From: a virus
Direction: 5' to 3' (one strand)
IMG/VR virus record: IMGVR_UViG_3300020473_000013
Coordinates: 62,001 to 126,000 of that record
DNA length: 64,000 nt
The notes under the pieces are model-generated. The model saw only the letters and a program-made list of their open reading frames with translations. It ran no database searches and had not been told where the DNA came from. Position numbers and translations under genes: made by a program. Of this stretch, positions 51,735 through 62,252 are shown piece by piece (positions within the stretch are counted from its first letter, which is position 1; every line of letters starts with the position of its first letter).

Positions 51735-53783
51735 TCAGTCCTCCAGGCCAAGAAGCTGCCGGCGGTACATGGCGTTCTCTGCCACGACGCCGCGGAAGAA
51801 GCGCTCCTTCTCCGCACTCTCGAACGGATTGATGCGGATGAGGCGACGGGTGCTGGGCTTGAACGCGATGGGTTCGAGGAACGTCTCGTCTACCTCACCC
51901 CAACCCTTGATGCGCACGATCTCGCCGTCTTTCACTTTCTTGGGCGACTCCTTACGGCAAGCGTCGAACGTCATGCCTCCGTAAAGTTCGCCGTCCTTCA
52001 CTGCCGCGTACAGAGGTGCGTCGATGCACCACACGCGACCTTCCTTGTACAGGTCGGGCAACAGCCGGTAGATAGCGGCGAGGTACAGCACTGCGATGTG
52101 GCCCCCGTCAGGGTCAGGGTCGACCAACAGGATAACGTTCGCCGTGCGCAGCTTGCCTGTATCCAACGTCGGGTTCTCAGCCTTCGGGTCAAGCGTCTTC
52201 ACGTCGGCACCGAGGGCAGTCAACATCTTCTGAATTTCGGCGTGACCCAACACCTTGGACAGCGGAGCCTTGAGTGCGTTGAGTGGCTTACCGCCAGCAG
52301 GCAGCACTTCCTGGTAGTCAGAGTTGCGTGCGTCGATGGCGGTACCAGCGGCAGAGTCACCCTCCACGATGAACAGCTCGCGTTCGTGCGGCTTGGCCTT
52401 GTCGGCTACAGCCAGCTCGCCCGGCAGTGCGCTCCCCTTGGTCTTCTTCTTCACGTCAGCCATGGACTTGACGACAGCAGCCAGGTCCTCTCGTCCTTTA
52501 CCTACAGCCTGCGCACGCTTGATGATGTCGCGTGCCACCTTTTTGTTCTTGGAGAAATACTCCTCGAACGCAGGGAGCAACTCCTCGTAAACTTCTCGGT
52601 CGACCTTGGACGCCAGCTTGTCCTTCACCTGAGAAGTGTAGGCCGCGCCGTGCATACGGTAGTCGAACAGGCCTGTTAGACCGACGAGCAGATCACTACC
52701 CTTGAAGCCGAGAGACCGGCCCTTGCCTTTGCCCTTCGCTTTGGGCATGTAAGGCTTGACTGCTTGTACCAGAGCGTCGGTAAAGCCTTTGACGTGCCAA
52801 CCACCGTCAGCGGTCGGGCTGGTATTGACGAAACTGACGAAGTTGTCGGAGTCGGGATGATCAGACCAAACGACGGCGAGGCTGATGTGGTCGGACTTGT
52901 GCGTGAACGGCTTGCCCATAGGCTTGAGTTCGCGAGAATCGCACATGGTCTTGGGAATCCAAGCCAGGTCCTTCTTGTTATGGAAGGTGGCACCTTTCGT
53001 CTTGCCTTTGCGCACGACGGACAGCTTGATGACCAGGCCAGGGTTCAGGTTCGCCATGTACTTCAACCACTCAGCCACTTTCTTGGCATCGGGCTCAGCC
53101 TTGACGAAGTTCTTGGGCAGCTTGCGACCACGGCGTGATGACTCGGACACGACGGTCTGGTCGAGCTTGGACGCGATGATGGTACCGTACTTCTGAATCT
53201 TCTTATGGCTCAGCAACGCCGTCACGTCGCTGTCCACCTTCTTGACCTTTACTGGGTGGGGCCCCTTGGTCGCGATCTCGCCGCGCTCGAAGCGCTGGAA
53301 TGCGAGGCCGCCGTTGTACGTGGACCAGACGCGCATTTCCTCGCTCACCGCGTTAGCGGCAGCGACACCAACACCGTGTGTACCGGCACTGGTCTTGTAC
53401 GCCTTGTCGTTGAACTTGCCGCCTGCGTGTGTCTTGGTCAGGGCGGCTGTCATAATGGTGATCTTCTCCCCAGACTTCAACTTTTTGAAGTCGGTCGGAA
53501 TACCGCCGGCACCGTCAGCCACCACCATCAGGTCGTTGTCGTAGTCGAGCACCACCTCGATCAGGTTGTTGCGTCCAGCGACGTGCTCATCGTAGGAGTT
53601 ATCGACCTTCTCCTTTAGATGGCGGCGTGCCATTTCCTCACCCAGCTCGCCGAGGTACATGGAGGGATTGGCGCGCACACCATCCAAATTCTCTAGGATG
53701 GCAAATGAATCCTGAGCAAATGACTTCTTCTTACCTTTCTTACCAGAAGTCACGTCAACTTCCTTCACACCTTTTCTAGCCAT
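51735..53783 (-). CDS. Type II topoisomerase subunit B (GyrB/ParE-like)
   Basis: 682 residues. GHKL ATPase: EKVDNSYDEHVAG, MVVADGAGGIPTDF, GTHGVGVAAANAVSE. Transducer region, then TOPRIM: LFIVEGDSAAGTA with the metal motif DPDPDGGHI. The N-terminal 25 residues are a basic tail (VKEVDVTSGKKGKKKSFAQD) that is duplicated in a 35-codon fragment at 54911-55018. It powers DNA strand passage during replication. The ATG follows GGAGG; a TGTAAATA motif lies 29 nt upstream inside the endonuclease gene. Confidence 0.9.
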   Translation of the reverse strand: MARKGVKEVDVTSGKKGKKKSFAQDSFAILENLDGVRANPSMYLGELGEEMARRHLKEKVDNSYDEHVAGRNNLIEVVLDYDNDLMVVADGAGGIPTDFKKLKSGEKITIMTAALTKTHAGGKFNDKAYKTSAGTHGVGVAAANAVSEEMRVWSTYNGGLAFQRFERGEIATKGPHPVKVKKVDSDVTALLSHKKIQKYGTIIASKLDQTVVSESSRRGRKLPKNFVKAEPDAKKVAEWLKYMANLNPGLVIKLSVVRKGKTKGATFHNKKDLAWIPKTMCDSRELKPMGKPFTHKSDHISLAVVWSDHPDSDNFVSFVNTSPTADGGWHVKGFTDALVQAVKPYMPKAKGKGKGRSLGFKGSDLLVGLTGLFDYRMHGAAYTSQVKDKLASKVDREVYEELLPAFEEYFSKNKKVARDIIKRAQAVGKGREDLAAVVKSMADVKKKTKGSALPGELAVADKAKPHERELFIVEGDSAAGTAIDARNSDYQEVLPAGGKPLNALKAPLSKVLGHAEIQKMLTALGADVKTLDPKAENPTLDTGKLRTANVILLVDPDPDGGHIAVLYLAAIYRLLPDLYKEGRVWCIDAPLYAAVKDGELYGGMTFDACRKESPKKVKDGEIVRIKGWGEVDETFLEPIAFKPSTRRLIRINPFESAEKERFFRGVVAENAMYRRQLLGLED

Positions 53784-54850
53784 TATCCGGCCTCCAACTT
53801 AAAGTCACTTTTATTTACAGAGTTCTTCAATTCTTTCAGGGTCATCCAAGAAGCGACACCCTTCATACGATTGGTTCTGTCAGGCAGTACCTGTAAATTG
53901 CAAGGGTGCACCATAAAGCGGACGGGAATCACGGAAGGTCTGCGTTCGTACTCCATAGTATCGCGGTTCAGCCTAAAGTAGGCATCATGAACACTAACTA
54001 TGTGGTCGATGGACTCTCCGGGTCCTACATTAAGCACATGGGCGTAATGCGCAGGAAACCTCTTCATAGCGGAACGGGTCACCGTACTTATCAACCGGCG
54101 GTATTCCTTATACGTAAGGAGCGATGGGTCCAGGCTCAACTTATACGTCCAGGATTGCCGCGCGGCGTTTCTGTTCTGATTCACCTCACACGTTCTTCCC
54201 TTCGCTCGATTATCCTCTAGTAGGCTTACGGCTTCTTCGTGTGTACGAACACGGACACCATTAGCTCGGAGAAAATCTTTTAACGCACCTGAAGTTATGC
54301 GCATGTGAGGAAATTTTTTCCGAATGCCGTCAACGATATAAGAGGCGCTTCGCTTATCCTCGACGTACATACGACAGATGGAACTCTTGTTCCTGCGCAA
54401 AAAGGCTTGCTTCACCTGAGAACGCGACATCAAAGGAGTGCCGGCTCGATTACATGCAGTCTTAAAAGCCCAAACGCACATGTCGGTCGAATGTTTATGA
54501 GCTAGGCGTGAAGCCATTTTACCAGGGGAGACGAGCTTCTTATTCCATTCGATAATGGTGTCGCGCTCAGAAACAACGATGTCTATATGAGAGGCAGCCT
54601 TTTTCTTTTTACTGCGCATTAGATCGAAGTGGTGGAGGAGCTTTTGGAGGCTCCCGTGAGGTATTCCTGTCTCATTGGACAGTTCCCGCATGTTCAACCC
54701 CTTCACTTGGTAAAGGGATTTGAGCCAGTCGCGTATCTGAGGCGTGGGTTTGATTTGCCACTTACCGTTTTTCCGCTTTACGTAGGTGACGCCATCGACA
54801 AACTTTTCAGTCCCTGTTTTGGCGTCTTCTTTTATGTGTGTGTATCGCAC
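53783..54850 (-). CDS. HNH homing-type endonuclease inserted upstream of topoisomerase B
   Basis: 355 residues, GTG start behind GGGAG. Residues 40-85 contain an HTH-like unit (MRELSNETGIPHGSLQKLLH). The C-terminal nuclease pattern is SIDHIVSVHDAYF (280-292) and MVHPCNLQVLPDRTNRMKG (313-331), as in free-standing and intron HNH endonucleases (DH...HP.NLQ....N..KG). Such enzymes spread by cutting alleles lacking them. Its stop overlaps the topoisomerase B start, and a copy of that gene's 5' end lies on its other side, evidence for insertion there. Confidence 0.8.
   Translation of the reverse strand: MRYTHIKEDAKTGTEKFVDGVTYVKRKNGKWQIKPTPQIRDWLKSLYQVKGLNMRELSNETGIPHGSLQKLLHHFDLMRSKKKKAASHIDIVVSERDTIIEWNKKLVSPGKMASRLAHKHSTDMCVWAFKTACNRAGTPLMSRSQVKQAFLRRNKSSICRMYVEDKRSASYIVDGIRKKFPHMRITSGALKDFLRANGVRVRTHEEAVSLLEDNRAKGRTCEVNQNRNAARQSWTYKLSLDPSLLTYKEYRRLISTVTRSAMKRFPAHYAHVLNVGPGESIDHIVSVHDAYFRLNRDTMEYERRPSVIPVRFMVHPCNLQVLPDRTNRMKGVASWMTLKELKNSVNKSDFKLEAG
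53812..53819 (-). promoter_or_regulatory. TGTAAATA promoter motif before topoisomerase B
   Basis: Minus strand CTCTGTAAATAAAAGTGAC inside the last codons of the endonuclease gene, 29 nt before the topoisomerase B ATG. It parallels the motif before the duplicated 5' fragment. Confidence 0.5.
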
Positions 54851-54910
54851 GATGATCTCCCAGATACATAGCTTCGATATTCTAAATTAGTATGTATCTA
54901 GGATTTGTAC

Positions 54911-55018
54911 CTAGGCAAGTCCTTCCATAATCTCGAAGCCGTCCTGCCGTGCAGACTTCTTGCGTTTTTTCTTCGGGGCGGAAGACACGTCCACCTCGGT
55001 CACCTTCTTCTTTGCCAT
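54911..55018 (-). pseudogene. Duplicated 5' fragment of the topoisomerase B gene, 35 codons
   Basis: The frame begins MAKKKVTEVDVSS and ends RQDGFEIMEGLA. Aligned with the topoisomerase B N-terminus (MARKGVKEVDVTS..., AQDSFAILENLD) about 20 of 34 residues are identical, after one gap. It stops at TAG exactly where the full gene continues into GVRANPSM. The homing endonuclease gene lies between fragment and full gene, and both copies carry a TGTAAATA motif about 30 nt upstream. It may still be translated. Most likely a relic of endonuclease insertion. Confidence 0.75.
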
Positions 55019-55051
55019 GATCGTGTAGCCTGTGTTGGAGGTATCAGTGAC

Positions 55052-55059
55052 TATTTACA
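55052..55059 (-). promoter_or_regulatory. TGTAAATA promoter motif before topoisomerase B fragment
   Basis: Minus strand ATTGTGTAAATAGTCACTG, 34 nt before the fragment's ATG. Confidence 0.5.
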
Positions 55060-57083: not shown

Positions 57084-57563
57084 TTAGGAGTCGTCTTCAT
57101 CGGAGTCAGCATCGGCGTCATCATCGGCGTCTGCGTCATCGCCAGAAGACTCATCATCGGAATCAGGGTCGGCATCATCGCCGTCACCATCATCGGAATC
57201 ATCAGAGGCATCATCGGTGCCAGTATCGGAGCCATCGTCATCACCTTCGTCTGAGGCATTGTCGTCAGAATCATCGCCGCCGTCTTCGGAGGAATCTTCA
57301 TCAGAACTATCCTCGTCCGAGGAGTCATCGGACGAGTCTTCGCTGTCCTCAGAATCGCCGTCGTCCGAGGAGTCTTTCTTGGCCTTTTTCTTGGCCTTTT
57401 CTTCCTTCTCCTTGCGCTCCTCCTCCCGTTCTTCCTTCTTCTCCTCTTCCTCTTCCGCATCGGAAGGCTGAGTCTGAGGGACGGTGCCTTGGTCCATGAA
57501 ACCATAAAAGCTGGCGAGAGCCTTATCGCTATCACTCACCATGGTTAGATCAATCTCGATCAT
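57084..57563 (-). CDS. Low-complexity Glu/Lys then Asp/Ser protein, 159 aa
   Basis: Residues 1-33 are ordinary (MVSDSDKALASFYGFMDQG). Residues about 36-65 are a Glu/Lys block, probably a single charged helix. The last 90 residues are Asp, Ser, Gly and Glu. No family recognised. The ATG follows AGGAGG. It belongs to the same class of acidic-tailed proteins as the 35-43 kb cluster. Confidence 0.75.
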   Translation of the reverse strand: MIEIDLTMVSDSDKALASFYGFMDQGTVPQTQPSDAEEEEEKKEEREEERKEKEEKAKKKAKKDSSDDGDSEDSEDSSDDSSDEDSSDEDSSEDGGDDSDDNASDEGDDDGSDTGTDDASDDSDDGDGDDADPDSDDESSGDDADADDDADADSDEDDS

Positions 57564-58643: not shown

Positions 58644-58651
58644 TATTTACA
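58644..58651 (-). promoter_or_regulatory. TGTAAATA motif, minus half of divergent promoter
   Basis: CGGTGTAAATATGCCAC on the minus strand, 30 nt before the nuclease ATG. Its mirror copy on the plus strand lies 20 nt away. Confidence 0.6.
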
Positions 58652-58671
58652 CCGACTTATATACGCGGCAG

Positions 58672-58679
58672 TGTAAATA
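58672..58679 (+). promoter_or_regulatory. TGTAAATA motif, plus half of divergent promoter
   Basis: GCAGTGTAAATATGCAC on the plus strand, 45 nt before the primase ATG. The core GTGTAAATATGC is identical to the minus-strand copy. Confidence 0.6.
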
Positions 58680-61778: not shown

Positions 61779-62252
61779 ATGCTCGAAATTCATGTAAGCG
61801 TAGCCAGTTCGACCCTCACCAACTTGCTCGGCCCGACGCCGACCGTGTTCGTAGAGGATACCGATATTCCCATCAAGCTCGAAAAGCTGAGGAGTAAAGG
61901 ATGGGTCATTATGGTGTGCCAGCGTCCTATCACAGGAACAGACGGGAACGTCGCGATCGGAAACAATGCGCATGGCAGACATTGGGCGGCCATGAACCCA
62001 ATGGACGAGTTCTTCGAGGAGAACCTACGAAGCAACGAAAAGCTGGATGCTCGCGTCGCTGTGGTTCTGACGGGTGAACAGTTAGTGCGGATGGCTCTGA
62101 TCGGAAATAGATATGCTGACAAATACAGGGAAATGGAGCTCGATAACGCACTCAAGCTCCTGAAGCCAAAGATCGACAAGCTGGAAGGGAAGAAATATAG
62201 CGAGGTGATGGAGCTCCTGAAACAAGCGGAGGCCGGCTATGGCAAGGGTTAA
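61779..62252 (+). CDS. Hypothetical protein, 157 aa
   Basis: Not recognised. The N-terminus is beta-rich (LEIHVSVASSTLTNLLGPTP), the middle has TGTDGNVAIGNNAHGRHWAA, and the C-terminus is a long helical segment (YREMELDNALKLLKPKIDKL). AGGAGG precedes the ATG. It overlaps the next gene by 14 nt. Confidence 0.75.
   Translation: MLEIHVSVASSTLTNLLGPTPTVFVEDTDIPIKLEKLRSKGWVIMVCQRPITGTDGNVAIGNNAHGRHWAAMNPMDEFFEENLRSNEKLDARVAVVLTGEQLVRMALIGNRYADKYREMELDNALKLLKPKIDKLEGKKYSEVMELLKQAEAGYGKG

Follow-up and report, generated by a model that had tools for sequence, protein, structure and literature searches.

An HNH endonuclease cassette that probably carries a replacement gene start into phage type IIA topoisomerase genes

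Introduction

Homing endonucleases survive in essential genes by means of introns, inteins or gene splitting. In fungal mitochondria, mobile ORFs have given rise to hybrid genes in Allomyces (atp6) and in Glomus sp. (atp6, atp9, cox2 and nad3) (PMC3630166). There, an endonuclease ORF invades a coding gene and brings along a foreign version of a segment of it. The hybrid gene remains full length, the displaced native segment persists, and the imported one differs in DNA but is conserved in protein. Among phages, mobA of T4 lies in the topoisomerase large-subunit gene (genes 39/60) and mobE of Aeh1 lies in nrdA (PMC2988022, PMC5009743). Phages also carry free-standing homing endonucleases, such as the seg and mob genes, and F-CphI, which acts with a psbA intron in collaborative homing (PMC2988022, PMC6083498).

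Here we analyze a locus of a giant bacteriophage where an HNH-type endonuclease gene separates a full-length topoisomerase gene, topoB, from an orphaned copy of its start. The locus has all the features listed above for the fungal hybrids, but in those the foreign part is a C-terminus with the native C-terminus downstream, whereas in topoB it is an N-terminus with the native start upstream, and the endonuclease is HNH-type rather than LAGLIDADG or GIY-YIG. With T4 mobA and Aeh1 mobE it shares an HNH endonuclease inside an essential phage gene, which in T4 is likewise a type IIA topoisomerase large-subunit gene, and neighboring sequence that may guard against recutting, as is thought for T4 mobA. 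The T4 and Aeh1 targets are, however, split into two polypeptides, whereas topoB is rebuilt as one, and the T4 insertion lies towards the C-terminal part, whereas that in topoB is near codon 35. Like the free-standing seg/mob enzymes and F-CphI, the endonuclease adjoins its presumed target, a neighboring change would block self-cutting, and a hairpin may control it, as is the case for some of those enzymes; unlike F-CphI/psbA collaborative homing, no intron is involved, and self-protection would come from the replaced coding segment. The foreign gene-end version is known in fungal mitochondria; neither the gene-start version nor a phage occurrence is reported in the literature that we searched (mostly open-access papers), in which we found no phage report of 5′-end replacement or of the endonuclease/orphan/new-start layout. 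We think it likely that this homing-endonuclease cassette repairs the essential topoisomerase gene that it interrupts by carrying a replacement gene start.

Organization of the topoB locus

The window, that is, the whole stretch of DNA analyzed, comprises 64,000 nt (positions 62,001–126,000) of the virus record IMGVR_UViG_3300020473_000013, which is 224,853 bases long. The full topoB gene (53783–51735, minus strand) encodes 682 aa, with Pfam matches to DNA_gyraseB (1.1e-22) and Toprim (1.3e-11) and a PHROG match to topoisomerase II large subunit (2.7e-137); its closest matches are in Pseudomonas phages PaBG (71%) and Lu11 (66%) and related large phages. The minus-strand order is TGTAAATA, the orphan frame, an AT-rich hairpin region, the endonuclease ORF, topoB, a small ORF and the A subunit, and a record-wide search found one topoB and one such endonuclease, with no second copy of either. 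The features, all on the minus strand, are as follows (L002 is the nearest relative, described below):

55052–55059, minus: TGTAAATA, native promoter-like motif, 41 nt 5′ of the orphan ATG
54911–55018, minus: orphaned topoB 5′ end, most likely native, 35 codons, MAKKKVTEVDVSSAPKKKRKKSARQDGFEIMEGLA followed by a stop; homology ends at 54917; matches the family consensus
54858–54903, minus: predicted RNA hairpin (UCCUAGAUACAUA / UAUGUAUCUGGGA), fold z-score −2.45
53783–54850, minus: HNH-type endonuclease ORF, 355 codons, GTG start, aligned with four relatives
53812–53819, minus: second TGTAAATA, within the 3′ end of the endonuclease ORF, 36 nt 5′ of the new topoB ATG
53791–53795, minus: GGAGG ribosome-binding site for the new topoB start, from the sequence
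53681–53783, minus: topoB 5′ end, most likely imported, delimited by GC3 and by the lowest full-block identity to L002; right boundary approximate
51735–53680, minus: native topoB body (GyrB/ParE-like type IIA topoisomerase large subunit), from Pfam and PHROG

The coordinates in a preliminary description of this DNA all hold. It placed the endonuclease gene between the fragment and the full gene, where the 355-codon ORF indeed fills the gap up to the topoB start at 53783; the endonuclease stop and the new topoB start overlap as TAATG. The identity of about 60% that it gave for the two starts is also borne out, as the orphan and the current N-terminus agree at 20 of 33 residues (61%), with an alignment score of 82 (5,000 shuffles: mean 23, maximum 52). 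Among the 164 window ORFs of at least 100 aa, none scores higher than topoB for an upstream repeat of the gene start, and those ranked second and third are of low complexity. The motif reported at a similar distance before both copies is TGTAAATA (41 and 36 nt). The orphan frame was said to end in TAG where homology should continue; the frame does stop there, but homology already ends a few bases earlier, at GGACTT (54917). The interval first noted (53735–55059) does not extend as far as the right junction, which is probably near 53680.

Native and imported gene starts

The nearest relative, L002 (81% protein identity to the window topoB and 73% identity in DNA), lacks the endonuclease at this locus and has a single uninterrupted start, MARKKGVQEVDV...KKKSASQEGFEIMEGLSGIRANP. 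The window topoB aligns to it from residue 1 and is full length, not split into two parts. The N-terminal peptides are MATKKKYDSTDITTLR for the imported start and MAEVKKQSKKYDSADINTLR for the orphan; the orphan ends with KKSARQDGFEIMEGL(A), and the corresponding stretch of the current gene is KKSFAQDSFAILENLDGVRANP. Nucleotide identity to L002 is 74% for the orphan, 73% for the gene body and 63% for the new start, and the orphan and new start are 56% identical to each other. GC3 is 41% in the first 34 topoB codons, 62–85% in every later block and 72% in the orphan. These identities and the GC3 shift make it most likely that the fragment upstream is the native one and that topoB now begins with foreign sequence. 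"Duplicated," the word first used for the second copy, is wrong, since that copy looks imported, with its synonymous sites at saturation; the accompanying idea, that endonuclease invasion orphaned the original 5′ end and a diverged start was brought in, fits every test, among them the L002 comparison and the base-by-base case below. The result named as refuting this idea, an endonuclease-free relative in which the 35-codon frame stands as a gene of its own, was not seen, and in the relatives checked this sequence is fused to topoB.

The protein sequence of the imported start is conserved although its DNA has diverged, and it is in frame with the native remainder. Where imported and native starts encode the same residue, 38 of 58 codons differ; host codon usage predicts 32 (P = 0.04), and uniform usage predicts 37. 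This is plain saturation, about what unrelated codon choice gives, and selection for recoding does not follow from it. Hyper-recoding by selection was accordingly rejected: a Nei–Gojobori pS near 1 is striking, but the same-residue codon counts indicate simple saturation. Codon and base differences seemed denser beside the junction, a pattern noticed after the fact. With amino acids conserved and synonymous sites saturated, it follows that both copies evolved as translated starts. Our searches found no donor phage for the imported start. Nor did they find a close sibling, nearly identical to the window phage, that lacks the endonuclease; L002 (73% in DNA) is the nearest.

Comparison of BcepSaruman and BcepSauron

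Burkholderia phage BcepSaruman is the sole phage record found with a full-length relative of the window endonuclease. Annotated as a hypothetical protein, this relative lies directly 5′ of gyrB and overlaps the gyrB start by 11 nt, and the 46-codon ORF on its own 5′ side begins MAEVKKQSKKYDSADINTLRFPE. The sister phage BcepSauron has no endonuclease, and its uninterrupted gyrB opens with exactly that peptide; the endonuclease is thus present or absent between alleles of one locus here, as it is between the window and L002. The BcepSaruman orphan equals BcepSauron gyrB at 145 of 146 bases, through CCTGAA. There follows an insert of ~1,058 bp (about 1.06 kb), made up of the endonuclease and the diverged 5′ copy, and 3′ of it, from AATCCCGGCATGTACATCGG on, the two phages are identical for at least 190 bases. 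Just before this junction the imported start differs at 20 of 60 bases. Because identity extends along both flanks, the insertion site in the uninterrupted gyrB can be pinned to ~12 bases, which separate the FPE codons from those of NPGMYIG. On this base-by-base alignment the pair is the proof case for orphan, endonuclease and new start having arrived as one insert.

Recurrence at other topoB loci

We compared 117 distinct topoB sequences, 114 of them with at least 1.5 kb upstream. The endonuclease family was reached through the topoB loci and a profile built from two endonucleases; direct endonuclease searches of the viral collection did not reach it. The profile brought in three further members, L075, L059 and L076, each directly 5′ of topoB. 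The family thus stands at five phages, is found only directly upstream of topoB/gyrB, and keeps the orphan in three of them. In L075 the orphan is MVKKAEKTAEYNSSHIEVQGGLEGIK, and its uninterrupted counterpart, L114, is 67% identical; L059 and L076 have no detectable orphan upstream of the endonuclease.

A second kind of enzyme occupies the same place in L154 (and in L156, 99.96% identical to it), where the order is orphan (MSNYDASSITVLEGLEAVRKRP), HNH_3 endonuclease and topoB, the last two overlapping by 8 nt. This endonuclease scores 32.6 bits against Pfam HNH_3 (cut-off 24.8) and is not found by the profile of the first family; by these comparisons it is unrelated to the window family, yet its locus repeats the arrangement seen there, and at the same motif (EGL-VR--P-MY-G). 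A 332-codon ORF with no Pfam match (L154:2484–3482) lies between the L154 orphan and the endonuclease and is possibly cargo or a second insertion.

Beyond the window, then, five phages have such an endonuclease beside topoB, three of them with an orphaned start. The four orphans score 56–97 against the topoB starts of the loci compared, where shuffled orphans reach at most 40–49, and all four end at or within one conserved motif, EGL-[GA][IV]R--P-MY[LI]G or equivalent. The endonuclease stop overlaps the topoB start in five of the six loci. A scan of bacterial genomes gave three distant topoB matches and no cassette.

The endonuclease

Alignment of the five family members (the window and its four relatives) leaves D282 H283, H315 P316, N318, N327 and K330 invariant, so that the HNH/His-Me catalytic residues are present by motif (D-H, H-P, N, N--K) and not by a curated model. 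The N-terminal part has a helix-turn-helix, and the C-terminal part is HNH/endonuclease-VII-like. PHROG matches are weak (HNH, endonuclease VII), and Pfam gives no nuclease match for the window endonuclease or its family. The predicted structure is of low confidence, and a fold search with it gave no match. Weak HNH-domain relatives (L110–L112) occur in unrelated contexts.

Expression signals

With 10 copies in the window where 0.38 are expected (26-fold), 9 of the 10 on the topoB strand, TGTAAATA is promoter-like and probably represents a phage promoter class. It usually stands ~30–70 nt ahead of a start codon; sites include 9258, 20090, 41305, 58644 and 61113 (minus) and 58672 (plus), and in L002 and L014 it lies 38–41 nt before topoB. 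At 58644–58679 two back-to-back copies point outward in the space between a pair of divergent ORFs. The endonuclease ORF retains the motif, internally or at its end, in both the window and L059. The new topoB start is preceded by the ribosome-binding sites TTGGAGG (window), CTGGAGA (BcepSaruman) and CTGGAGC (L075); together with the stop/start overlaps, these suggest that translation of the endonuclease and of the new topoB start is coupled.

A hairpin is predicted at or near the endonuclease start in all five family members, with modest z-scores (−1.5 to −2.5). In the window it covers the GGGA just 5′ of the endonuclease start. Hairpins of this kind limit endonuclease translation in T4 and Aeh1 (PMC2988022), and by analogy the predicted hairpins may control endonuclease expression here. 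The stretch 5′ of the endonuclease (window 54851–54910) is alike in L075, L059, L076 and BcepSaruman (L023), reading GTACAAA-TCC...AATTTA...ATGTATCTGGG. The 3′ arm of the window hairpin reads like the MYLG codons of topoB, and such codons lie 5′ of the endonuclease start as ATGTATCTGGG in the window and ATGTACATTGG in BcepSaruman; we tentatively read them as leftovers of the target, although the same bases belong to the predicted hairpin.

Alternative explanations

The preliminary description allowed for a spliced intron joining EIMEG(L) to DGVRANP. In such a reading the intron would be self-splicing and contain the endonuclease, the orphan would be exon 1 (...EIMEGL) and DGVRANP would open exon 2, with the second start an accident or an unspliced back-up. 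Such splicing has a precedent in phage ICP1, which splices essential genes containing HNH-3 endonucleases, though no repeated gene start is described there (PMC10448857). Splicing would join the two parts in frame at the homologous position, as would any join at homologous positions. Against it, Rfam searches of the window and four other loci, run at permissive thresholds, gave no intron match. The second start encodes a conserved N-terminus, is preceded by a ribosome-binding site and overlaps with the stop of the endonuclease, and L059 and L076 have the endonuclease and no orphan that could serve as exon 1. We therefore regard an intron as very unlikely. The two orphan-less loci among the six would also suit an ordinary free-standing homing endonuclease between genes, with the orphan a by-product of some unrelated event, either recombination or partial duplication, that plays no part in the working of the element, and endonucleases adjoining their target genes are common (PMC2988022). 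Coincidence of that kind would, however, have to break the orphan at the same homologous site in four separate loci with two endonuclease families, overlap stop and start in five of the six, and bring orphan, endonuclease and new start together as one BcepSaruman insert; it is about as improbable as the intron.

Least probable of all, and barely credible to us, is that the phage duplicated its own 5′ end in tandem and that the second start diverged where it stands once the insertion had occurred. The new start and L002 do have a common MARKxGVxEVDVT opening, so that the source was at least a related phage. In BcepSaruman, however, the flanks and orphan are near-identical to BcepSauron, whereas synonymous sites in the new start are saturated; divergence in place since the insertion cannot account for this, and the GC3 shift in the window also argues for import. 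Translational bypass as in T4 gene 60 was rejected, as the gap is over 1.1 kb and holds a gene.

Proposed mechanism and significance

From what can be read in the sequences (orphan, insert, foreign start, in-frame fusion, uninterrupted BcepSauron gene and recurrence) we infer cleavage, homing and immunity along the following lines, in which the cassette replaces the start that it displaces. The endonuclease would recognize the conserved sequence with which the ATPase region begins (EGL-GIR-NP-MYLG) and break or nick an uninterrupted topoB allele. Repair from a donor phage would copy in the endonuclease gene and the donor topoB 5′ end with its own ribosome-binding site. A left exchange within the recipient's native start would strand the native 5′ end upstream as the orphan, and a right exchange close to the break would fuse the imported start in frame to the recipient gene body. 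The product would be a full-length chimeric topoisomerase made as one polypeptide, with neither intron nor intein required. The native site would now be halved, the orphan keeping the left part and the gene body the right; the left half that was imported, differing at saturated synonymous positions, would have lost recognition. Because of that difference and the splitting of the native site, neither junction should be recut, and the replacement start thus probably also protects against re-cleavage.

We lean, somewhat less firmly, towards the broader view that this is a recurrent class of phage cassette with at least two origins from unrelated HNH enzymes, invading type IIA topoisomerase genes at their most conserved 5′ motif without intron or intein, its diverged start serving as both repair patch and shield against re-cleavage. 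A replaced gene start would be a further way for a homing endonuclease to persist in an essential gene. It would explain short orphan ORFs ahead of phage genes and warns that essential phage genes can have imported N-termini; if the mechanism is true, successive invasions would give mosaic N-termini in such genes. BcepSaruman and BcepSauron make a ready two-phage test system.

Other features of these loci

In the window, an acidic low-complexity ORF of 159 codons (57084–57563, minus strand) has a C-terminal half that is almost wholly D, S, E and G. The gyrB genes of BcepSaruman and BcepSauron (L023:6413–8992 and L025:4977–7568) both have a ~190-residue insertion after DPDPDGP, ending ...MLPSGIMSANCHINS, which by eye looks like a small intein. 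In L059, topoB is broken after GDSAGG by an intein-like stretch (CFIGTTPVRLADGSVFSFEEL...; L059:5450–5683), so that this topoB apparently holds another selfish element besides the endonuclease; the remainder of this topoB is at L108:9074–9895, its C-terminal part lying ~1.4 kb or more downstream.
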